This document shows positions 2,981 to 36,636 of a stretch of DNA of 41,798 nt, one piece after another. Position 1 is the stretch's first letter. Each line of letters opens with the position of its first letter. Origin of the DNA: Caldilineales bacterium (lineage in GTDB: Bacteria; Chloroflexota; Anaerolineae; J102); contig JAIBAP010000054.1 in NCBI GenBank assembly GCA_019695115.1, forward strand, positions 1 to 41,798, written 5' to 3'. The position numbers were made by a program, and so were the translations under genes. Under the pieces are notes generated by a model that had not been told where the DNA came from, did not search any database, and saw only the letters and a list, made by a program, of their open reading frames with translations.

Positions 2981-3236
2981 CCCCACCCCCCATCCCCCAT
3001 CCGCCCATCCCAGCAATCCGCCCCCACCCCCATCCGCCCATCCCAGCAATCCGCCCACCCTCATCCGCCCATCCCAGCAATCCGCCCACCCCAACAATCC
3101 GCCCACCCCAACAATCCGCCCATCCCCCATCCGCCCATCCCCCCATCCGCCCATCCCCCCATCCGCCCATCCCAGCAATCCGCCCATCCCAGTAATCCGC
3201 CCGCCCCAACAATCCGCCCATCCGCATCCACCCACC
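2981..3236. repeat. C-rich CCGCCCATCCC array in folD leader
   Basis: About 255 nt of repeated ATCCGCCCATCCC and AGCAATCCGCCC words, almost without G in runs on the plus strand. It ends about 15 nt before the folD ribosome-binding site. Same family as 1-120 and 34138-34320. Confidence 0.85.
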
Positions 3237-3260
3237 CAACCTCATCCCACGGAGGACCAT

Positions 3261-9853: not shown

Positions 9854-12800
9854 ATGACTCGGCGTTCATTCGAATCCGAATATCTCTACGGCATTCACGA
9901 CATCGGCGGCGAGCAGATCATGCTCGACAAGGGCATCCCCGGCTGGATGCTGGTCACCGAGAAATTGGGGAGCAACCCCAACGACCAGGGCGGCGTCAAC
10001 TACCGCCATCTCGCGGACAAGGGTTTGGGGGTGATGGTGCGTTTGAACAACGGCTACGAGGAAGATGGCACCCTGCCCCCTGAAGCTCGCTACGCCGACT
10101 TCGCCCAACGCTGCGCCAATTTCGTCCGCAACTCCGACGGCGCCCACATCTGGATCATCGGCAACGAGCCGAACTATGCCATCGAGTGGCCCGGCGCCCG
10201 CTGGGACTGGAACACCGTGCAACCGGTCAGCCCCGACAAGGCCGGCGAGCCGATCACGCCGCAACGCTACGCCCGATGCTACGTCCTCGTGCGCAAGGCC
10301 ATCAAGTCCCTGCCCGGCCGCGCCGACGACCTGGTGCTGCCGGCGGCGGTGGCGCCGTGGAACGCCATGACCAAATACCCCGGCAACGAAAAGGGCGACT
10401 GGGTCAAATACTTTGTCGATATGCTGGGCGCCATCGGCGCCGACAACCTCGACGGCATCACCCTCCACACCTACACCCACGGCCAGAGCGAAGACCAGAT
10501 CTGGGCCGAAGACAAACAGGACGCCGAGGGCTACAGGCATCTGCGCAAAACCTTTCGCACCTACCGCGATTTCATCGACGCCCTGCCGGCCGCCATGCGC
10601 CAGCTGCCGCTCTACATCACCGAGATCAACCCGCACCCCACCTGGGAAGACCGCAACACCCGTTGGGTGCAGCGAGCCTACGGCGAAATCGACTACTGGA
10701 ACAAGAACAACTCCCAGAAAATCCGCTCCGTCATCCTCTTCCGTTGGACCAAATCCGACCAGCGTTGGGGCTTCGAGGGCAAAAACGGGGTGATCGACGA
10801 CTTCCGCCAGGCCCTGGACTATCGCTACAAATGGGAGGTGGGCGCGGCCCCCGAACCGGAAAAACCGGTCGTCGACACCCCCTACCGGGCCGAAATCACC
10901 TGGAAGCAGGCGCCGGGCAAGGGACAGTCCGGCCAGCAGACGCCCGTCATCGTGGCCGTGCGCAACACCGGCAGCCGGGAATGGCCTTCCGGCGGCGGCA
11001 ATCCCGTCCGCCTGGGCTACCACTGGTACACCCCCGCCGGCGCGCCCGTGAGCGATGTGGCCGATAACCGCGTCTTCCTGCCCCGAAACCTGAAGACCGG
11101 CGAAAGCGCCGACCTCACCCTCCCCCTGGGCATGCCCGGCCAACCGGGAAGCTACACCCTCGACCTGGACATGGTGCACGAAGGCATCACCTGGTTCGCC
11201 GACGCCGGCAGCCAGGTCTTGCGCAGCACGGTTGCCGTCGAGGGCGCGCCCTTGCCGGCCGAACAGTACTTCGAGATCAGCAAAGTCTGGGTGCGGGGCG
11301 TTTTTCTCGACTTCTTCCGGCGCTACGGGCTTGACATCTGCGGCTATCCCATCACCGAGCAGTTCACCGAAAACGGTATGGCCGTGCAATACTTCCAGCG
11401 CCTGGCCCTGGAAGAATACGAGAAAGGCAAAGTGCGGCTGCGGCTGACGGCCAGCCAGGCCTGGGAAGCCGACAAGAAACTGGCCGCCCTCCAACAGCAG
11501 GTCGCCGTGCTCACGCAGCGGCTGCAACAGGGCGGCGGCGCCGCGCCCCGGCCGCCAATCCAGGATGTGATCGCCCAGTTGCCGCGCGACCCGGCCGGCC
11601 TCCTGCCCCGCGCCGACGAGCAGACCAAATACATCATCATCCACCACACCGGCATCCCTGGCGGCGTCTCGGTGCAGCGCGTGGCCCAGGTCTACCGCCA
11701 GAAGAACTGGCCCGCCATCACCGGCCATTTTTATGTCGATTACGATGGCGCCCTCCTCCAAACCGGCGCCCTGACCGAAGCGGTGAGCAACGCCGGCTGG
11801 GCGCAGGAAGGCATCAACATCCTGGTGGCGGGCAATTTCACCGACGCCACGCCCTCCCCGGCCCAACTCGACTCTCTGGCCGCCCTCTGCGCCTGGCTGC
11901 TCGATAGCCACAACCTGGAGACGGCGGCCGTGCGCGGGCTGGGCGAGGGCTTCTCGCCCACGCAATCGCCGGGCAAACAGTGGCTGAACGGCCAACGCTG
12001 GAAGGAAATGCTGGTGCAGCGCATCGAGCCGCTGCGCGGAAGCGGCGGTGCGGTTGGCCCCGGCCCGGACGAAGGCGCCCTGGCCGCCCTTCGCCAGCAG
12101 ATCGAGCAGGCGCGCCAGGAAAGCGAAAGCCTGCGCCGGCAGGTCGCCCAGATCACGGCCGAGCGCGACCAATTCTCTGGCCAGGCAACCGCGCTCGGCG
12201 GCCAGGTCGCCGCCCTCAGCAGCCAGGCCGCCTCCCTCCAAACCGAGATCACGGCCCTGCGCCAGGCCCTGGCCCAGGCGACGAAGACCGTCGTCGCCCA
12301 ACCGACCGTGCGCGATGTCATCGGCCAGTTGCCGCGCGACGCCAGCAAGATGTTCAAGCGCAGCACCGCCGACATCCAATACATCGTCCTCAACCACACG
12401 GCCGTGCCGGCCAGCGTCGGCATCGACCGCGTGGCCAAGGCCCATCGGGCGCGCTGGCCGGCCTTCGTCTCGCAGTTCTTCGTCGATGGCGAGGGCGCCA
12501 TCTTGCAAACCAACCCCATCGATGAGGTGGTGGACGACAAACAGCCCTGGCTGTTCCACGGCATCAACATCCATGTCGCCGGCAACTTCAACGACGCCGT
12601 CCCCGCGCCTGCCCAACTCGATGCCCTCGCCGCCCTGGTCGCCTGGCTCCAGCAGACCTACGACGTTCCATCCGAAAACGTGAAGGGCGTGCGCGAGTTC
12701 ATCGTCACGCAGTCGCCGGGCGAGCAGTGGCAGGCGGGCAGCAACTGGAAGCAGATGCTGTTGGAGCGGGTGGAGGCCGTGCGGGCCGCCGCCCAGCCGG

Positions 12801-14266
12801 GTGGCGCCCAACCGGGCGGGGGAGCCGGGGCCGGGAGCGAGGTCATCCAGACCTTGCGCCAGCAGATCGCCACCCTGCAGACCCAGAACCGCGACCTGGC
12901 AGCCCAATTGGCGACTGCCCGCTCGCAATTGCAGACCCTCCCCGCCGAAAACCAGCAGTTGCGACAGCAGATCGGCCAGCTCCAGGCCCAGGTGCAGGAC
13001 CTGACGCAGAAGTTGGAGGCCGCCAACAACCAGCTCAAGACCCTCCCCGCCGAAAACCAGACCCTCAAAGCCCAGGTCGCCCAACTGCAAACCCAGAACA
13101 AGGACCTGGCCCAACAATTGGCGACGGCCAAAGCGCAGCTGGACAAACTCCCCGCCGACAGCCAGGCCCTGCGCCAGCAGATCGGCCAACTCCAGACCCA
13201 GGTGCAGACACTCGGCCAGCAGTTGTCCGCCGCCCAGACCGAGGCCCAGACCCTGCGCACACAGGCCGACGGGTTGCGGCAACAGGCAAGCGCTTTGCAG
13301 GCCGAGAAACAGACGCTGCAAACCCAGCGCGACCAGCTCAACCAGACCATCGCCGGCCTCAACAGCACGGTGGCGGCGTTGCGGCAAGAAAATGACCAGC
13401 TGCGCACCCAGCCGCATCCCGACGCCCCGGCCATCGTGCCCCAACCGGCCATGCAAGAGCTGGTGGACAAGCTGCCCAAACACCCCACCAATCGCTATCC
13501 CGCCCGCACGCTGGATCAGATCACCCACATCGCCATCCATCACAGCGCCGCGCCCGCCAACATCCCGCCCGAACGCATCGCCCAGTACCACGTCACCAAT
13601 CCCCAGCATCAGTGGCCGGGCATCGGCTACCATTATTACGTTGGCCCGGACGGGACCATCTACCACACCCAAGACCTGGCCCTGGTCTCGAACCACGTCT
13701 ACAAGAACAACGCCTACACGGTGGGGATCTGCGTGGCGGGCGATTTCACCGAGGTCGCGCCCACCCCGGCCCAGATCGACGCCGCCGCCCGCCTGACCGC
13801 CTGGCTGATGCAGGAGCTAAAGATTCCGCTCGGCAACATCTGGGGCCACAAAGAGTTCCCGCACAACGTCACCGCCTGCCCCGGCCGGCAGTGGACAGAC
13901 GGCCAGAAATGGAAGGAAGGCCTGTTCGATCAGATTGCCCGCGCCCGCGGCGAAGCCGGCGTCCACCCGCTCAACCACTATTTGCTCTTCTGGCAGAAGC
14001 AGGATGCCTGGGCGCAGCAGGATTGGGCCGGAGCGATGAACTATATCGCCCGCTTCCGCCCCACGGCCGGCTTCTCGCTCGATGACGCCCGCCAGGCCGA
14101 GTATGTGACCATCGTTGGCGGCGTCGCCGGGGTCAGCCAGCAGGCCGAGGACGAGTTGCGCGGCGCCGGCGCGAAGGTCGAGCGGCTGGCAGGCAAGGAT
14201 TTCGCCGAGACCAAGGCGCTGCTCGATGGCCTGGCGCAAGCGGGCAAGCGCTTCGCCACCCTGTGA
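9854..14266 (+). CDS. Multidomain protein: GH-like TIM barrel plus three PGRP/amidase-2 domains
   Basis: A 1470-aa protein. Residues 1-330 resemble a clan-A glycoside hydrolase barrel, with GNEPN (Glu105) and ITEIN (Glu257) as likely acid/base and nucleophile. About 350-465 is an Ig-like domain and 470-545 an LGFP-like segment ([14 protein letters not shown]). Three peptidoglycan-recognition/amidase domains lie at about 566-725, 816-980 and 1196-1365, separated by Gln-rich coiled coils, the longest at about 995-1190. The third has His1229/1230, His1332 and Cys1342, the zinc-ligand set of amidase-2. The first two carry Leu or Val for the second His and Ser for the Cys, so they look catalytically dead. 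The C-terminus resembles a cell-wall-binding repeat ([15 protein letters not shown]). No signal peptide is visible. The start is chosen for GAAGGAAAGG just upstream. Confidence 0.85.
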
Positions 14267-14275
14267 ACCATCCCC

Positions 14276-14541
14276 TTTCCATCCGCGTTCCTCCGCGTTC
14301 ATCCGCGTACCCTTTCCTCTCCTCCTGCCTTTCCATCCGCGTTCCTCCGCGTTCATCCGCGTACCCTTTCCTCTCCTCCTGCCTTTCCATCCGCGTTCCT
14401 CCGCGTTCATCCGCGTACCCTTTCCTCTCCTCCTGCCTTTCCATCCGCGTTCCTCCGCGTCCATCCGCGTACCCATTCCACTCCTCCTGCCTTTCCATCC
14501 GCGTTCCTCCGCGTTCATCCGCGTACCCTTTCCTCTCCGCG
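14276..14541. repeat. 54-bp tandem repeat, about five copies
   Basis: Unit built of decamers CATCCGCGTT, CCTCCGCGTT and CATCCGCGTA followed by CCCTTTCCTCTCCTCCTGCC. The copies are nearly identical, the fourth differing by a few bases. The array fills the gap between the PGRP protein stop and the scpA start. It is not a CRISPR: there are no spacers. The decamers recur at 18451-18480 and 20889-20925. Confidence 0.9.
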
Positions 14542-14548
14542 TACCCCA

Positions 14549-15340
14549 ATGAAGTCGCCCTTCCGGCTCAACCCGGCCGATGATTATGTACTCCGGCTGG
14601 ATGTAGGCGAAGACGAGCCGTTCGAAGGCCCGCTCGACCTCCTCCTCCATCTGATCGAGCACGAAGAACTACCGATCACGGCCATCAGCCTGACCCAGGT
14701 GACGGGGCAATACCTGGCCTATCTGGCCACGCTCGAACAGCGCAAACCCGAAGGCATCGCCGATTTCCTGGTCATGGCGGCGCGGCTGCTTTACATCAAG
14801 TCGGCGGCCCTGCTGCCCCGCCCCGCCGACGAAAGCGACGAGGACGACGGCGAGGACCCGGCCGAGGCCCTGGCCCGGCAATTGCGCGAATACAAGCTGT
14901 TCAAGCAGAAGGCGGAGATGCTGCTGGACCGCGAGGTCAGCGGCCAGCGCGCCTACGTCCGTCTGGCCCCGCCGCCCAAGCTGGAAAAACGCCTGGCCCC
15001 CGGCGGCATGCAGGTGCAGGCGCTGCTCCTGGCCGTATACGAGGTGTTGCGCGACTACGAGGCCCCCCCGCCGCCGGTCGCAGGCATCACGCCTCATCAG
15101 GTCACCGTCCAGGACAAGATGGCGGCGCTGACCACACAGTTGCAGGGCCAGAAAGTGGTGCGTTTTCGCCAATTCCTGGGCCAGTCGCATTCCCGCGTCG
15201 AGATCGTGGTCAGCCTGCTGGCCGTGCTGGAACTGCTCAAGCGCCGCCTGGTGCGGGTCGAGCAGCCGACGCCGTTTGGGGATATTTTGATCGAGGCGTT
15301 GGCGGCGAGCGAAGACCCTAAAGGTCTGGGAGACCTTTAG
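14549..15340 (+). CDS. scpA: Segregation and condensation protein A
   Basis: ScpA is the kleisin subunit that bridges the SMC heads in bacterial condensin. The 263-aa length and the N-terminal FEGPLDLLLHLIEHEELPI signature are diagnostic. LVMAARLLYIKSAALLP follows, then an acidic linker (DESDEDDGEDPAEAL) and a C-terminal winged-helix region (VSLLAVLELLKRRLVRVEQ). The ATG at 14549 has no Shine-Dalgarno and stands 7 nt behind the 54-bp repeat array. The stop codon and last residues (EDPKGLGDL) are encoded by the first of two palindromic repeats, so the repeat supplies the C-terminus. No scpB is seen next to it. Confidence 0.95.
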   Translation: MKSPFRLNPADDYVLRLDVGEDEPFEGPLDLLLHLIEHEELPITAISLTQVTGQYLAYLATLEQRKPEGIADFLVMAARLLYIKSAALLPRPADESDEDDGEDPAEALARQLREYKLFKQKAEMLLDREVSGQRAYVRLAPPPKLEKRLAPGGMQVQALLLAVYEVLRDYEAPPPPVAGITPHQVTVQDKMAALTTQLQGQKVVRFRQFLGQSHSRVEIVVSLLAVLELLKRRLVRVEQPTPFGDILIEALAASEDPKGLGDL

Positions 15341-15397
15341 GGTCTAGGCGTTGGCGGCAAGCGAAGACCCCAAAGGTCTGGGAGACCTTTAGGGTCT
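15313..15397. repeat. Two tandem palindromes spanning two stop codons
   Basis: Copy 1 (15313-15345): AGACCCTAAAGGTCT, GGG, AGACCTTTAGGGTCT, a perfect 15-bp hairpin. Copy 2 (15365-15397) has one mismatch. They belong to a 52-bp direct duplication that includes the preceding GGCGTTGGCGGCRAGCGA, i.e. part of the scpA 3' end. The scpA stop lies in copy 1 and the stop of the convergent ATPase gene (15389-15391) in copy 2. The hairpins probably act as a two-sided terminator, though no long T tract follows. Confidence 0.9.
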
Positions 15398-24465: not shown

Positions 24466-24810
24466 CGGCGATCAATGGTAATTGGTGATTGGTTATTGGT
24501 TGTTGGTGATTGTCGGTGCGGAATCCGTTACCCGTCACCTGCCATCCGTCACCTGCCACCCGCCATCCTTCGTTACACTCAGAGCCTGCCCTTTGCGGAG
24601 CGAAGGGACAACCTCTGCCACCTGTCTACTTGTCTACCTGCGACTTGCGATCCTTCGCTTCACTCAGGACAAGCTCTGCCACTTGCCACTTGCCACCTGC
24701 GACTTGCGATCCTTCGCTTCACTCAGGACAAGCTCTGCCACCTGCCACCTGCCACCTGCGATCCTTCGCTTCACTCAGGACAAGCTCTGCCACCTGCCCC
24801 CTGCCCCCCC
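24466..24810. repeat. Mixed word array upstream of tgt
   Basis: Heptads of TTGGTGA/TTGGTTA type (24479-24515), ACCTGCCATCC-type words, TGTCTACC octads, and then three near-identical units. Each unit is built of CTTGCCA/CTTGCGA heptads plus the 23-nt element TCCTTCGCTTCACTCAGGAC-AAG (24651, 24710, 24772; a diverged copy at 24566). No gene is present. The array ends directly before the tgt ATG. Confidence 0.85.
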
Positions 24811-24811
24811 C

Positions 24812-25927
24812 ATGCCCTTCCGCTACACCCTCCACGCCACTGACGGACTGGCCCGTTTGGGCGTGTTCAGCACCCCGCACGGCGACATCCGCACCCCCGC
24901 CTTCGCGCCAGTCGGCACGCAAGCCACCGTCAAAACCCTCAGCCCTGAAGAAGTGCGTGGGGTGGGCGCCGACATGGTGTTGGCGAACACCTACCATCTC
25001 TACCTGCGCCCCGGCGCCGACCAGGTGGCGCGCTTCGGCGGATTGCACGGATTCATGAGTTGGGAGGGGCCTATCCTCACCGATAGCGGCGGGTTTCAAG
25101 TCTTTTCGCTCAGCAAACTGCGCAAAGTCGACGCCGATGGCGTCACGTTTCAGTCACACATCGACGGCAGCCGCCATCGTTTCACCGCCGAAATGGTGAT
25201 GGAGGTGCAGGCCAAACTAGGCGCCGACATCATCATGTGCTTCGACGAATGCGCCGACCCCCTCGACCGGGCCTACAACGAGCGGGCACTGGAGCGAACG
25301 CACGCTTGGGCTGCCCGGTGCGCCCACTCCCAGCGCCGTCCCGATGCCCAGGCCCTGTTCGGCATCGTCCAGGGCGGCATCTTCGAGGACCTCCGCCAAC
25401 AGAGCGCCGCTGCCCTTGCCGCCCTCGACCTACCCGGCTATGCTATCGGCGGGCTGGCCGTGGGTGAGACCAAGCCGCAGATGTACGCCACCCTCGATGC
25501 CACCCTGCCCTTCGTCCCTGCCGACCGCCCGCGCTACCTCATGGGTGTGGGCGCTCCCGATGACATCGTCGAAGCTGTCGCCCGCGGCATCGACCTCTTC
25601 GATTCGGTCCTCCCCACCCGCGTCGCCCGCCACGGCGCCTTCTTCACCGCCCACGGCCGGCGCAACCTGCGCAACGCCCGCTTCGCCGACGAGACCGGCC
25701 CGCTCGAACCCGGCTGTGATTGCTATGCCTGCACCCGTTTCAGCGCCGCCTACGTCCACCACCTCATCCGCGCCGAAGAAATCTTCGGCTTGCGCCTCAC
25801 CACCCTCCACAACCTCCGCTTCCTCCAGCGGCTGATGCAAGCGATCCGCGACCACATCGCCGCCGGTACATTCGACGCTTTCAAAACCTCGTTTCTGAGC
25901 GAGTACGTTGCGAAACGTGATCTTTGA
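24812..25927 (+). CDS. tgt: Queuine/preQ1 tRNA-ribosyltransferase
   Basis: Exchanges guanine-34 of GUN-anticodon tRNAs for preQ1, a step to queuosine. It is 371 aa. Seen: the catalytic pocket motif ILTDSGGFQVFSL, FDECADPLDRAY, GIVQGGIFEDLR, GGLAVGE, the nucleophile region GIDLFDSVLPTRVARHG, and the zinc site CDCYACTRF with the His pair YVHHL downstream. The ATG at 24812 starts at the homology boundary and has no Shine-Dalgarno; it is preceded by CTGCCCCCCC and the word array. The frame stays open far upstream only through repeats. Heptads begin one base after its stop codon. Confidence 0.96.
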   Translation: MPFRYTLHATDGLARLGVFSTPHGDIRTPAFAPVGTQATVKTLSPEEVRGVGADMVLANTYHLYLRPGADQVARFGGLHGFMSWEGPILTDSGGFQVFSLSKLRKVDADGVTFQSHIDGSRHRFTAEMVMEVQAKLGADIIMCFDECADPLDRAYNERALERTHAWAARCAHSQRRPDAQALFGIVQGGIFEDLRQQSAAALAALDLPGYAIGGLAVGETKPQMYATLDATLPFVPADRPRYLMGVGAPDDIVEAVARGIDLFDSVLPTRVARHGAFFTAHGRRNLRNARFADETGPLEPGCDCYACTRFSAAYVHHLIRAEEIFGLRLTTLHNLRFLQRLMQAIRDHIAAGTFDAFKTSFLSEYVAKRDL

Positions 25928-26119
25928 GTGGTTCGTGTTCCGTGTTCCGTGGTTCGTGTTCCGTGGTTCGTGTTCCGTGTTCCGTGGTTCGTGTTCCGTA
26001 TTCCGTATTGCACAAATCACTCCATAATACGCAACACGCAATATGCACTACGCATCAAATATCGCACAATACCAATAACCAATCTCCAATAACCAATCTC
26101 CAATAACCAATCTCCAACC
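25928..26119. repeat. Heptad arrays filling the tgt-uppP gap
   Basis: Twelve in-phase words (GTGGTTC, GTGTTCC, GTATTCC) at 25928-26011 begin directly after the tgt stop. After 18 nt, a second phase-constant series runs from 26030: CGCAACA, CGCAATA, TGCACTA, then CCAATAA/CCAATCT words. It continues to the base before the uppP ATG at 26120. The intergenic region is essentially all heptads. Confidence 0.9.
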
Positions 26120-26923
26120 ATGTCCATCCTCGAAGCCATCATCCTCGGCCTGGTTCAAGGCCTGACCGAATTCCTCCCTGTCAGTTCCTCCGCTCATCTC
26201 GTCCTCGTCCCCTGGTGGTTGGGGTGGACGCCTCCTCCTCTCGCCTTCGACACCACCCTGCATCTCGGCACCCTACTGGCCGTGCTGGCCTATTTCTGGC
26301 GCGACTGGTGGGAATTGGCCCAGGCTGTGCTCGACCGGCTGCGCGGCCGGGGTGACGAGGCCAAATGGCGGCTGGCGCTTGCCATCGTCATCGGCGTCAT
26401 CCCCGCTGCCGTCATCGGCTATCTGTTCGAGAGTTTCTTCGAGGCCATGTTCAGCCAACCGACGCTGGTGGCGGCCATGTTGCTCGTCACCGGCGCCATC
26501 CTCATCCTTGCCGAAACCTGGAAACGAGGCGGCCTGCCGTTGGCGAACATCCGTCTCAGCGATGCCGCCGTCATCGGCCTGGCCCAGGCCGCAGCCATCA
26601 TCCCCGGCATCAGCCGCAGCGGCGCCACCATCGCCGCCGGCCTGCTGCGCGGCCTCGACCGCCCCGCCGCCGCCCGCTACTCCTTCCTGCTCAGCGCCCC
26701 CATCATCTTCGGCGCCGGCGTGTTCCAGATCAAAAACCTGGCCGGCGCCGGCATCGACGCCATCGGCCTGACCCCCCTCCTCATTGGCTTCCTGGTCGCC
26801 GCCATCAGCGGCTTCCTGGCCATCCGCTTCCTCATGCGCTTCGTACAGACCCGCAGCCTCTACCTCTTCGCCGTCTATGTCTGGCTCTTCGGCCTCCTGT
26901 CATTGCTGCGGGCGCTCCTGTAA
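26120..26923 (+). CDS. uppP: Undecaprenyl-diphosphatase
   Basis: UppP (BacA) dephosphorylates undecaprenyl pyrophosphate, recycling the lipid carrier for peptidoglycan and glycan export. The 267-aa length and about eight membrane helices are typical. Diagnostic motifs are QGLTEFLPVSSSAHL near residues 14-28 and IPGISRSGATIAAGLLRG near 157-174, which carry the catalytic Glu, Ser and Arg residues. The ATG is immediately preceded by a heptad array and has no Shine-Dalgarno. The 3' end overlaps the proposed start of the next gene. Confidence 0.95.
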   Translation: MSILEAIILGLVQGLTEFLPVSSSAHLVLVPWWLGWTPPPLAFDTTLHLGTLLAVLAYFWRDWWELAQAVLDRLRGRGDEAKWRLALAIVIGVIPAAVIGYLFESFFEAMFSQPTLVAAMLLVTGAILILAETWKRGGLPLANIRLSDAAVIGLAQAAAIIPGISRSGATIAAGLLRGLDRPAAARYSFLLSAPIIFGAGVFQIKNLAGAGIDAIGLTPLLIGFLVAAISGFLAIRFLMRFVQTRSLYLFAVYVWLFGLLSLLRALL

Positions 26924-27701
26924 GATCGGCGTCCGCCTTCTCGCCCTCCTGTTCCTCCTCTCCCTCACGGCCTGCACCCGCGGCCCGGCATCGCCGACGC
27001 CAACACCAAAGCCGTTGCGCGGGGCAGGCAGCGCCGTGATGACCGACCTCTGGCCCACCCTGGCCGCCGAATTCGCCCAAGGCCGCGTCGACCAGACCCC
27101 TCGCTACGAAGCCATTCCCAGCGGCCTGGCCGTGGACGAGCTGGCCGCCGGCAAGTGGGACTTTGCCATCAGCGCCGACCCCACCGCCAGAGAACGCCAT
27201 CCCGACCTGAACTACACAGCCATCGCCGCCGACGCCCTGGCCATCCTCGTCCATCCCCGCACCCAGCTCCCCAACCTCAGCCTTACCCAGGCCCGCGACC
27301 TCTTCGGCGGCTACGTCAAGGACTGGTCGGAGCTGGGCGCTGGCGGCGGCGAGGTGCAACTGGTCGGGCGGGAGGAGGGCAGCGGCGCCCGCAGCCTTTT
27401 CGCGAGCGTGGTCATGGGCGAGCGACCCCTCGCCCTGACAGTCCTGCTCATGCCGGACGACGCCGAAATCGTGGACTACATCGCCAGCCATCCCGGCGCC
27501 GTCGGCTTTGCCAGCGAGCGCGTTGCCAGGGGCCGGCCCGCGACCATCGTCGCGCTTGAAGACCTGCGCCCGGGTCAGAATGGCTACCCCCTCGCCCGCG
27601 CCATCGACCTCGTCCTCCCGCCCTCCCCCACGCCCGCCGCCCTGGCCCTGCGCGACTTCCTACTCTCTGCCCAAGCCCAGCGCCACCTCCTCCCCCCCTA
27701 A
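26877..27701 (+). CDS. PstS-like substrate-binding lipoprotein
   Basis: A secreted lipoprotein of the periplasmic-binding-protein-like (PstS/phosphate-binding) fold. A basic n-region, hydrophobic LLALLFLLSLTAC with a lipobox, and a short Pro/Thr linker open the protein. GAGSAVMTDLWPTLAAEF, WDFAISADPTARE, VHPRTQLPNLSLTQARDLFGGYVKDW, GREEGSGARSLF and HPGAVGFASE follow, the typical order of PstS-like domains. The start is uncertain: the nearest in-frame ATG is 26877, inside uppP (47-nt overlap), giving 274 aa; no ATG, GTG or TTG lies closer to the signal peptide. No ABC permease is adjacent. Confidence 0.75.
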   Translation: MSGSSASCHCCGRSCKIGVRLLALLFLLSLTACTRGPASPTPTPKPLRGAGSAVMTDLWPTLAAEFAQGRVDQTPRYEAIPSGLAVDELAAGKWDFAISADPTARERHPDLNYTAIAADALAILVHPRTQLPNLSLTQARDLFGGYVKDWSELGAGGGEVQLVGREEGSGARSLFASVVMGERPLALTVLLMPDDAEIVDYIASHPGAVGFASERVARGRPATIVALEDLRPGQNGYPLARAIDLVLPPSPTPAALALRDFLLSAQAQRHLLPP

Positions 27702-27745
27702 CACCCCTAACACCCCCCGCCTCGCCCCTCTCCCGCTCCACCCCC

Positions 27746-27843
27746 CACGTTTCACCCCTCACGTTTCACCCCTCACGTTTCACGCCTCACCCCTCACGTT
27801 TCACGCCTCACCCCTCACGTTTCACGCACCACGCACCACGCAC
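27746..27843. repeat. Heptad array CACGTTT/CACCCCT/CACGCCT
   Basis: Fourteen consecutive in-phase 7-nt words (CACGTTT, CACCCCT, CACGCCT, CACGCAC), ending 5 nt before the ATG of the FAD oxidoreductase. In gene-sense orientation it reads like the arrays before glmS and the PrsW gene. Confidence 0.92.
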
Positions 27844-27848
27844 CCCCC

Positions 27849-29030
27849 ATGACCCCATCCATCCTCATCATCGGCGGCGGCATGGCCGGCGTCGCCAGCG
27901 CCTGGTTCCTCGCCCAAAGCGGCGCTCGCGTCCTCCTGCTCGAACGGGGCAAAACCTTCGGCTGGCTGACCACGGGCGCCTCGTTGCAGGCCGTGCGCGC
28001 CCAGTTCAGCGACCCGGTCAACATCGCCTTCATGACCGACAGCCTGGCCTTCTACGAGCAATTCGGCCAGCGCCTCGACCTGCCCGGCTACGACATCGGC
28101 TTCCACCAGCAGGGCTACCTCTTCATCACCTCCGAAGAAGCCGCCATCCCCGCCCTGCGCCAGCGCGTTGCCTTCCAACACCGCCACGGCCTGAGCGACG
28201 TCGAATTCCTGGAGCACGACGAACTGCACCACCGCTTCCCCTTCCTCGCGCCCGAAGCCCTGGCCGCCACCTTCCGCCAGCGCGATGGCTGGCTCTCGGC
28301 CCACGAGGCCCTTGATGGCTTCCGGCGGGCGGCGCGGCGGCTGGACGACGGCCGGCGGGCCGAATTCCGGTTGAACACAAGCGTCGAGGGCTTCATCCAG
28401 GCCGGCGGCCGGGTGACGGGGGTGATCACCCCGGATGGGAGGCTCGAAGCCGACGCAGTGGTGATCGCCTGCGGCCCCTTCAGCGGGCTGGTGGCGCAGA
28501 TGGCGGGGGGCGAGTTGTCCATCGAGGCCGTCCGCCGGCACCGACTGGTCATCGGCGAGCACCATCTCATCCCCGGTTGGGCGCCCATGACCATCGACCA
28601 CGACACCGGCGCCCATTGGCGACCGGAGGGGCCGGGTGCGGCCCTGGCCTGGGCCGAACCAGAGCCAGCCACACCGCCCAGCTTCGACGTGCGCCCCGAC
28701 CCGAACTTCCCCTTCCGCATGTTGGAGGGCGTCTACCGGCTCTGCCCATTTTGGGGCGACGTGGCCGAGACGCTGCCGCGCAGCCAGGTCTTCCTCCACG
28801 CCGGCCAATATGACATGACGCCCGACCACAACCCGCTCATCGGCCCGGTGCCCGGCCTCGAGGGGCTGTGGGTCAACGCCGGTTACAGCGGGCACGGCGT
28901 CATGGCGGCGCCCGGCGGCGCCCGCCTGTTGGCCGACCTGCTGATCGGCGCCCGGCCGCTCGCCGGCAACCCCTTTGCGCCCGACCGCCCCTTCGCCCAC
29001 GAGGGCGAGGCCGAGAAGATGGTGATCTAA
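27849..29030 (+). CDS. FAD-dependent oxidoreductase, DAO family
   Basis: A 393-aa amine or amino-acid oxidoreductase of the glycine/sarcosine-oxidase type. The N-terminal dinucleotide-binding motif ILIIGGGMAGVASAWFLAQSG and the LLERG ribose-contacting acidic residue are clear. The C-terminal FAD segment GLWVNAGYSGHGVMAAPGGA is typical of DadA/SoxB-like enzymes. The substrate is unknown. There is no signal peptide. The ATG is preceded by a heptad array and lacks a Shine-Dalgarno. Confidence 0.85.
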   Translation: MTPSILIIGGGMAGVASAWFLAQSGARVLLLERGKTFGWLTTGASLQAVRAQFSDPVNIAFMTDSLAFYEQFGQRLDLPGYDIGFHQQGYLFITSEEAAIPALRQRVAFQHRHGLSDVEFLEHDELHHRFPFLAPEALAATFRQRDGWLSAHEALDGFRRAARRLDDGRRAEFRLNTSVEGFIQAGGRVTGVITPDGRLEADAVVIACGPFSGLVAQMAGGELSIEAVRRHRLVIGEHHLIPGWAPMTIDHDTGAHWRPEGPGAALAWAEPEPATPPSFDVRPDPNFPFRMLEGVYRLCPFWGDVAETLPRSQVFLHAGQYDMTPDHNPLIGPVPGLEGLWVNAGYSGHGVMAAPGGARLLADLLIGARPLAGNPFAPDRPFAHEGEAEKMVI

Positions 29031-33949: not shown

Positions 33950-34395
33950 ATCGAGGCTCAGAACTTGACGTTCCCTTGTGTGCGTCCGCGTCGATCAACC
34001 ATGTTACTGACTCCAGACAAGCGCTCGCTCCAGCGCCTGTTCCAAATCAACCAGGGCCAGAACTCTTTCAAGTATCCATCTCATTATCGCGCTTCCCCTC
34101 CTGCGTGCAAATGAGTGCGCGGGCAGAGGGTGGCAGTTCAGTGATCCGCCCATCCCCCCAATCCGCCCATCCCAATCCGCCCATCTCCCCAATCCGCCCA
34201 TCTCCCCCAATCCGCCCATCCCCCCAATCCGCCCATCCCAATCCGCCCATCCCCCCAATCCGCCCATCTCCCCCAATCCGCCCATCTCCCCCAATCCGCC
34301 CATCCCCCCAATCCGCCCACATGATAATCGCCCCACGCGTTGGAGCCTTCGCCACCGCCGCGGTAAAATAGCCAGGCTCCACTCCCATTTCTACT
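33950..34395. other. Intergenic region with C-rich array
   Basis: Positions 33950-34137 show no convincing gene; a 26-codon minus-strand frame (MRWILERVLALVDLEQALER) looks protein-like but is unsupported. 34138-34320 is the AATCCGCCCATCCC array. 34321-34395 is the G-poor leader of the SH3 gene. Confidence 0.5.
34138..34320. repeat. C-rich CCGCCCATCCC array, third locus
   Basis: About eleven repeats of AATCCGCCCATCCCCCC and shorter variants. Same word family as 1-120 and 2981-3236, upstream of the SH3-domain gene in the same orientation as at folD. Confidence 0.88.
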
Positions 34396-36379: not shown

Positions 36380-36636
36380 GCGGATTGCGGATTGCGGAAC
36401 GTGAGGAGTGAAATGTGAGGAGTGAAACGTGAGGAGTGAAACGTGAGGAGTGAAACGTGAGGAGTGAAACGTGAGGAGTGAAACGTGAGGAGTGAAACGT
36501 GAGGAGTGAAACGTGAGGAGTGAAACGTGAGGAGTGAAACGTGAGGAGTGAACCTTGCCACTTGCCACTTGCCACTTGCCACCTGCGATCCTTCGTTTCA
36601 CTCAGGACAAGCTCTGCTACCTGCGACCTGCCCCCC
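36380..36636. repeat. Phase-continuous heptad array of three word families
   Basis: From 36380 to 36589, thirty consecutive 7-nt words: GCGGATT/GCGGAAC (3), alternating GTGAGGA and GTGAAAC/GTGAAAT (22), then TTGCCAC/CTGCGAT (5), with no change of phase at the junctions. A copy of the 23-nt element TCCTTCGTTTCACTCAGGAC-AAG follows at 36589, and more CTGC words run to the PHP gene stop. Confidence 0.93.

Follow-up and report, generated by a model that had tools for sequence, protein, structure and literature searches.

The window, 41,798 nt in length, is contig C54 of the 5.99-Mb, 135-contig genome (G000) of an uncultured Chloroflexota bacterium. The gene tgt, encoding tRNA guanosine(34) transglycosylase, was called on the forward strand at positions 24812 to 25927 (TIGR00430, 502 bits, over the cut-off) and ends with the stop codon TGA at 25925-25927. 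It is followed on the same strand by uppP, encoding undecaprenyl-diphosphatase, at 26120 to 26923 (TIGR00753, 232 bits, over the cut-off). The uppP ATG at 26120 was supported by homologue alignments starting at residue 1, and the nearest matches were MAGs of the Caldilineae/Anaerolineae, at 63%, so that the bacterium probably belongs to the Caldilineales. No structured RNA families or tRNAs were found in the window.

The 192-nt gap between the two genes carries three heptad arms, given here as read on the forward strand. A G/T-rich arm (25928 to 26009) is made of GTGGTTC/GTGTTCC and then GTATTCC words, a weak middle arm (26026 to 26054) of ATACGCA/ACACGCA-like words, and a C/A-rich arm (26071 to 26117) of CCAATAA/CCAATCT words with a higher-order unit of 14 nt, followed by CC and the ATG. 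At a permissive threshold and with the weak middle arm included, 158 of the 192 nt were period-7. The two arrays of the original prediction are real, and the GTGTTCC array does start one base past the tgt stop, at 25928, opening with a perfect 35-nt duplication of GTGGTTC/GTGTTCC words; the last seven bases before it, TCTTTGA, lie outside the heptad series. The CCAATCT array had been said to run up to the last base before the uppP ATG, but it ends at 26117 with 2 nt (CC) intervening, and the middle of the gap, where 18 nt had been said not to be clearly heptads, holds the weak third arm, with about 16 nt unassigned on either side of it. The C/A-rich arm contains neither start codons nor a Shine-Dalgarno motif.

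Neighbouring gaps are also rich in repeats. The TAACACC words after the downstream substrate-binding-protein gene had been read as heptads beginning at its stop codon; their unit is in fact 9 nt (CCCCTAACA, 27695 to 27716, forward strand), and the repeat begins inside the gene and provides its TAA stop (27699-27701). A C-rich heptad array of TCACGTT/TCACGCC/CACGCAC words follows on the same strand (27739 to 27844) and stops 4 nt short of the following gene, whose ATG is at 27849. The divergent gap before tgt holds a G/T-rich TGGTGAT array (24476-24507) and then C-rich TGCCACY arrays (24677-24709, 24735-24759 and 24787-24808, all forward strand), so that the G-then-C order is seen here too, and the last of them stops 3 nt short of the ATG of tgt. 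Upstream of tgt, a unit of 52-59 nt that combines TGCCACC heptads with GATCCTTCGCTTCACTCAGGACAAGCTC is present in about three copies (24606-24805); the part of it outside the heptads resembles a dispersed element. Elsewhere, an almost perfect array of a 54-nt unit (14274-14538; 4.9 copies, 97%) lies between the long gene 9854-14266 and the ATG at 14549, starting 8 nt past the stop of the former and ending 10 nt short of the latter, and fills the gap in the same way with a longer unit. A 52-nt duplication (15294-15397, 96%), which has a palindrome-like stretch inside it, spans the stop called for the gene 14549-15340 and is a further example of a repeat at a gene end. The 14-nt unit AACGTGAGGAGTGA is repeated 11 times (98%) at 36398-36552, in a gap whose other arrays keep the G-then-C order.

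Genes were called on 1.24 Mb, and later on 1.64 Mb, with a purpose-written Markov gene finder, in which starts are less certain than stops; the array statistics cover 1.64 of the 5.99 Mb (27% of the genome). An array was defined as a run in which base i equals base i+7. In 1.24 Mb, 261 period-7 arrays were detected, compared to 2, 38, 27 and 1 for the control periods 5, 8, 10 and 11, and GTGTTCCGTGTTCC occurred 214 times in the genome while its reversed control did not occur. These counts indicate that the heptad arrays are not a product of chance. In the same 1.24 Mb, 94% of period-7 array bases were intergenic, and the arrays covered 7.9% of intergenic bases compared to 0.08% of coding bases. 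Loss of mismatch repair was rejected as the cause, as MutS1 is full-length in this genome and 37 of the 41 genomes have a MutS1 above the cut-off.

Perfect tandem pairs in the sampled gaps fell into 87 canonical word classes, the top 20 of which made up 70% of gap-word incidences; the commonest were AACACGG, AATCTCC, AACACGC, ACGCCTC and AAACGTG. Two copies of GTGTTCC in tandem matched 214 times in this genome, 0 times in two congeners and 8 times in G004, and two copies of CCAATCT matched 193 times here, 1 and 0 times in the congeners and 13 times in G003. The data suggest that words spread inside a lineage and that species differ in their words. Slippage by itself cannot carry one word to hundreds of gaps, which implies some exchange between arrays. 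Two gaps of the window lying 31 kb apart (2999-3238 and 34144-34319) have a 17-nt C-rich repeat in common, ATCCGCCCATCCCNNCA, indicating that longer words are dispersed too.

The original prediction held that arrays end exactly at the codon. Among 209 stop-side outer edges in 1.64 Mb, 7 lay at 0, 26 within 1 nt and 49 within 3 nt, while 24 lay at least 4 nt inside the gene and 105 at least 14 nt away. The 223 start-side outer edges included 5 at 0, 25 within 3 nt and 50 at 4-13 nt. Edges do gather near stops, but the claimed exactness did not hold. Nor are the edges random relative to gene ends: at 0-3 nt from the stop, 24 edges were observed versus 10.3 under random placement in the same gaps (1.24 Mb), and this two- to threefold excess is what clipping or gap growth would give. 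Both outer edges lay at most 7 nt from the genes in 21 of 216 array gaps, and at most 3 nt in 9 of 216. The tgt|uppP gap is a clean instance of edge-to-edge filling, not a unique one. A model in which single arrays are clipped failed to reproduce the frequency of edges at 4-13 nt from genes (18.8% observed, 3.4% by the model); two-arm gaps may account for this excess.

The match rate at lag 7 stayed at the coding background of about 0.27 up to the stop, was 0.33-0.36 right after it and remained flat to +150 nt; ahead of starts, it rose gradually over about 12 nt. Array coverage in tandem gaps was alike after stops, in the middle of gaps and in the stretch 10-29 nt ahead of starts. It was lower in the final ~10 nt before starts, where some space is kept for ribosome binding. 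In coding sequence, coverage was 0.02 in the last 10 nt and 0.0013 in the middle. The flat density across gaps, together with the collapse in coding sequence, indicates that gene ends are not preferred sites and that coding exclusion clips the arrays; neither a density peak at gene ends nor exact edges were found. Of the two mechanisms offered earlier, this exclusion supports the removal of arrays from coding DNA by selection; recognition of gene ends is not supported, the density being uniform and not raised there.

Orthologous tgt|uppP gaps were compared among relatives. Where no heptads were detectable, the two genes overlap (G006 and G032, -4; G033, -10; G035, as ATGA) or are separated by 21-64 nt (G014, G020 and G040). 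Heptad-bearing gaps are 29-192 nt long (G001, G025, G002, G004, G005, G017 and the present genome), with different words in every heptad-bearing genome. This comparison argues that the tgt|uppP gap is largely a product of array growth. In three relatives, the repeat passes through the tgt stop itself: an array in G001 spans -19 to +26 around the stop, in a gap of 29 nt; an array in G004 begins at -12; and in G008, both the stop and part of a tgt tail of 14 residues lie in repeats of an 8-nt unit, GTAGACCG. Stop codons can therefore come from an array. The G008 array (contig L095) goes from the tgt tail through the stop to the contig end, and assemblies may break at such arrays. In the sampled genome, array gaps had a median length of 86 nt after subtraction of their arrays, and array-free gaps a median of 114 nt. 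Exact block duplications of 35 nt and 14 nt were also present in arrays.

Taken from sequence comparison, the probable explanation is that heptad arrays grow in non-coding DNA and are clipped at gene ends by selection, and that the gap itself was largely made by array growth. Duplication of 7-nt units and of multi-unit blocks would drive growth and turnover of the arrays in non-coding DNA, with slippage as the presumed growth step and with a word set largely peculiar to the present species. Selection would remove arrays that damage genes, so that arrays stop at gene ends. Clipping on the stop side would be loose, an array being tolerated at the very end of the coding sequence provided that a stop is kept. 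The tgt|uppP gap would be full from stop to start because it was mostly built by array growth between overlapping or nearly touching genes. Three observations stand against this explanation: the excess of edges at 4-13 nt, the polarity on the stop side and the failure of slippage to spread words.

Strand polarity, which was absent from the original prediction, is the one array feature that does depend on gene ends. In tandem gaps, arrays nearer the stop were GT-rich on the coding strand in 70 of 94 cases, and arrays nearer the start were AC-rich in 89 of 101 (Fisher p = 1e-19). By this AC/GT measure, 69 of 70 multi-array gaps showed no reversal of the order from G-rich to C-rich. The measure was replaced by G versus C after the data of the relatives had been seen, and the present genome, but not the relatives, was recounted; in this larger sample, G-rich arrays preceded C-rich ones in 93 of 94 multi-array gaps. 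The order is nearly exceptionless in this genome. Among the matches listed for two tandem copies of CCAATCT, the reverse-strand copy came first in the six places where both orientations occurred within ~100 nt. Of the single arrays that lay close to a stop but at a distance from starts, 16 were G-rich and 5 C-rich. Short contig samples of the relatives, scored with the AC/GT measure, yielded few arrays, and G002 and G003 appeared mixed; their sequences, read by eye without a count, have GA-rich and then CT-rich words, in the same order.

On the start side, the near-start arrays carried 0.68 start codons per array on the coding strand, compared to 9.4 if reversed. The C/A-rich orientation would be favoured beside starts because the other orientation would burden the leader with around nine false start codons. 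A Shine-Dalgarno-like motif was found in 1 of 42 genes with an array at most 6 nt from the start, versus 41% of all genes and 9% in a control interval. About 5% of genes in the sample (42 of 890) are apparently translated from repeat leaders that have no Shine-Dalgarno motif. The growth-and-clipping explanation would thus include an orientation filter by which almost only C/A-rich arrays are retained beside starts and G-rich arrays prevail beside stops, with selection as the likely cause on the start side. For the polarity on the stop side, by contrast, no reason based on selection is apparent.

The order could alternatively come from a polar generator, in which the strand leaving a gene 5' to 3' is laid down G-rich by telomere-like addition or by fold-back copying at broken intergenic ends, so that every gap would consist of two arms that join. 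The order in multi-array gaps speaks for such a process, as does its extension to divergent gaps, where all 17 arrays lying no more than 40 nt from a start followed the polarity, and mostly to convergent gaps, few in the sample, with 10 of 11 arrays within 7 nt and 14 of 18 within 40 nt. Pure and degenerate arrays were equally polar, which also fits, and the arms of one gap were complementary in 28 of 62 cases compared to 17.5 expected from pairings across gaps. However, most arm pairs have unrelated words, the purest stop-side arrays were polar in just 10 of 15 cases, and on the start side the selective reason suffices. We consider such a generator unlikely.

The same complementarity is relevant to a reading at the RNA level, in which the G-rich and C-rich arms pair as a hairpin between the cistrons, or Rho is loaded at the C-rich arm, facing inward, and ends transcription that is antisense or reads through. 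The tgt|uppP gap was predicted to fold better than its shuffles (z = -2.74), with the middle arm pairing with the G/T-rich arm, and a C-rich, G-poor RNA would precede gene entry from either side. However, real gaps folded only marginally better than gaps with swapped arms (p = 0.09), most gaps have no arrays, and orthologous gaps differ; an RNA-level role for the arrays is therefore quite improbable. A hairpin as the sole cause of the polarity was rejected because the gains in complementarity and in folding were modest. Placement by a mechanism that recognises gene ends, to which the edge excess within 3 nt of stops and the boundary-dependent orientation might point, is very improbable given the flat density across gaps, the edges scattered around stops and the orthologous arrays that cross the stop.

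Heptanucleotide repeats are described, in citations within PMC4692102 and PMC4679880, as more common in several bacteria than any other class of long SSR, and the length contacted by the polymerase is cited there as a proposed reason for the unit of 7. The GGGAATC and GGGGA(C/T)T repeats of Xanthomonas and Nostoc are ~90% intergenic, lie near gene ends and in some cases overlap stop codons; their G-rich strand is coding after stops and non-coding before starts, and their sequence and length differ among close relatives (PMC4692102). They have the 7-nt unit, the intergenic location and the strand set by the gene boundary in common with the present arrays, but each of those genomes has one G4-forming word family, whereas here many words occur, mostly with no G-tracts, two opposed arms occupy a gap and divergent gaps carry arrays too. 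Words of the GGGAATC/GGGGAYT type were represented here by AATCCCC-type words in only 2 gaps, and the commonest words have little G4 potential. The TAACTGA direct repeats of marine Beggiatoaceae and some Cyanobacteria and Bacteroidetes are intergenic, abut starts mostly in the absence of a Shine-Dalgarno motif, overlap the stop of the upstream gene in some cases, differ by indels of 7-nt steps between Cyanothece strains and have been proposed as the site of a translational regulator (PMC4679880). The present arrays resemble them in the 7-nt unit, the intergenic location and the abutting of starts in place of a Shine-Dalgarno motif; unlike here, a single word is used, with 2-6 copies in most sets, directed forward toward starts. 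TAACTGA was absent among the 40 commonest words listed for the sampled gaps.

In a cyanobacterial plasmid, Trichormus variabilis plasmid A (100 kb), just 2 period-7 arrays were found, too few for an independent check of the polarity. The STRR heptanucleotides of heterocystous cyanobacteria comprise several heptad words scattered over many intergenic loci. They resemble the present arrays in both respects and differ in phylum and in words; STRR heptanucleotides are mentioned for Calothrix (PMC4692102). The tandem repeats of archaeal Borg elements are perfect and of varied unit length, with units in ORFs being multiples of 3, and are not period-7 (PMC9879509). Unit length and placement assign the present arrays to the bacterial heptanucleotide-array kind; with their two arms per gap and many words, they seem to be a variant of the kind found in Nostoc, Xanthomonas and Beggiatoaceae. 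It is unlikely that a polar DNA process of this lineage, which might also act in Nostoc and Xanthomonas, builds the arrays with the G-rich strand 3'-outward from gene borders, every gap then holding two joined telomere-like arms and the words being replaced from one species to another. Heptanucleotide arrays were already known from these three groups, with the polarity partly reported there, and our literature search found no description of such arrays in Anaerolineae; the present analysis documents that the arrays are excluded from coding DNA, are evenly dense across gaps, turn over between orthologous gaps, can cross stops and are polar.

Heptanucleotide arrays recur in distant bacterial phyla and have no accepted cause. 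With hundreds of arrays in a nearly exceptionless order, species-specific words and orthologous gaps that do or do not carry arrays, it becomes testable what fixes the unit at 7, by what route words spread and whether the strand is set by selection or by the generator. In such genomes, repeats have a share in setting start sites, the lengths of intergenic gaps and the C-termini of proteins.
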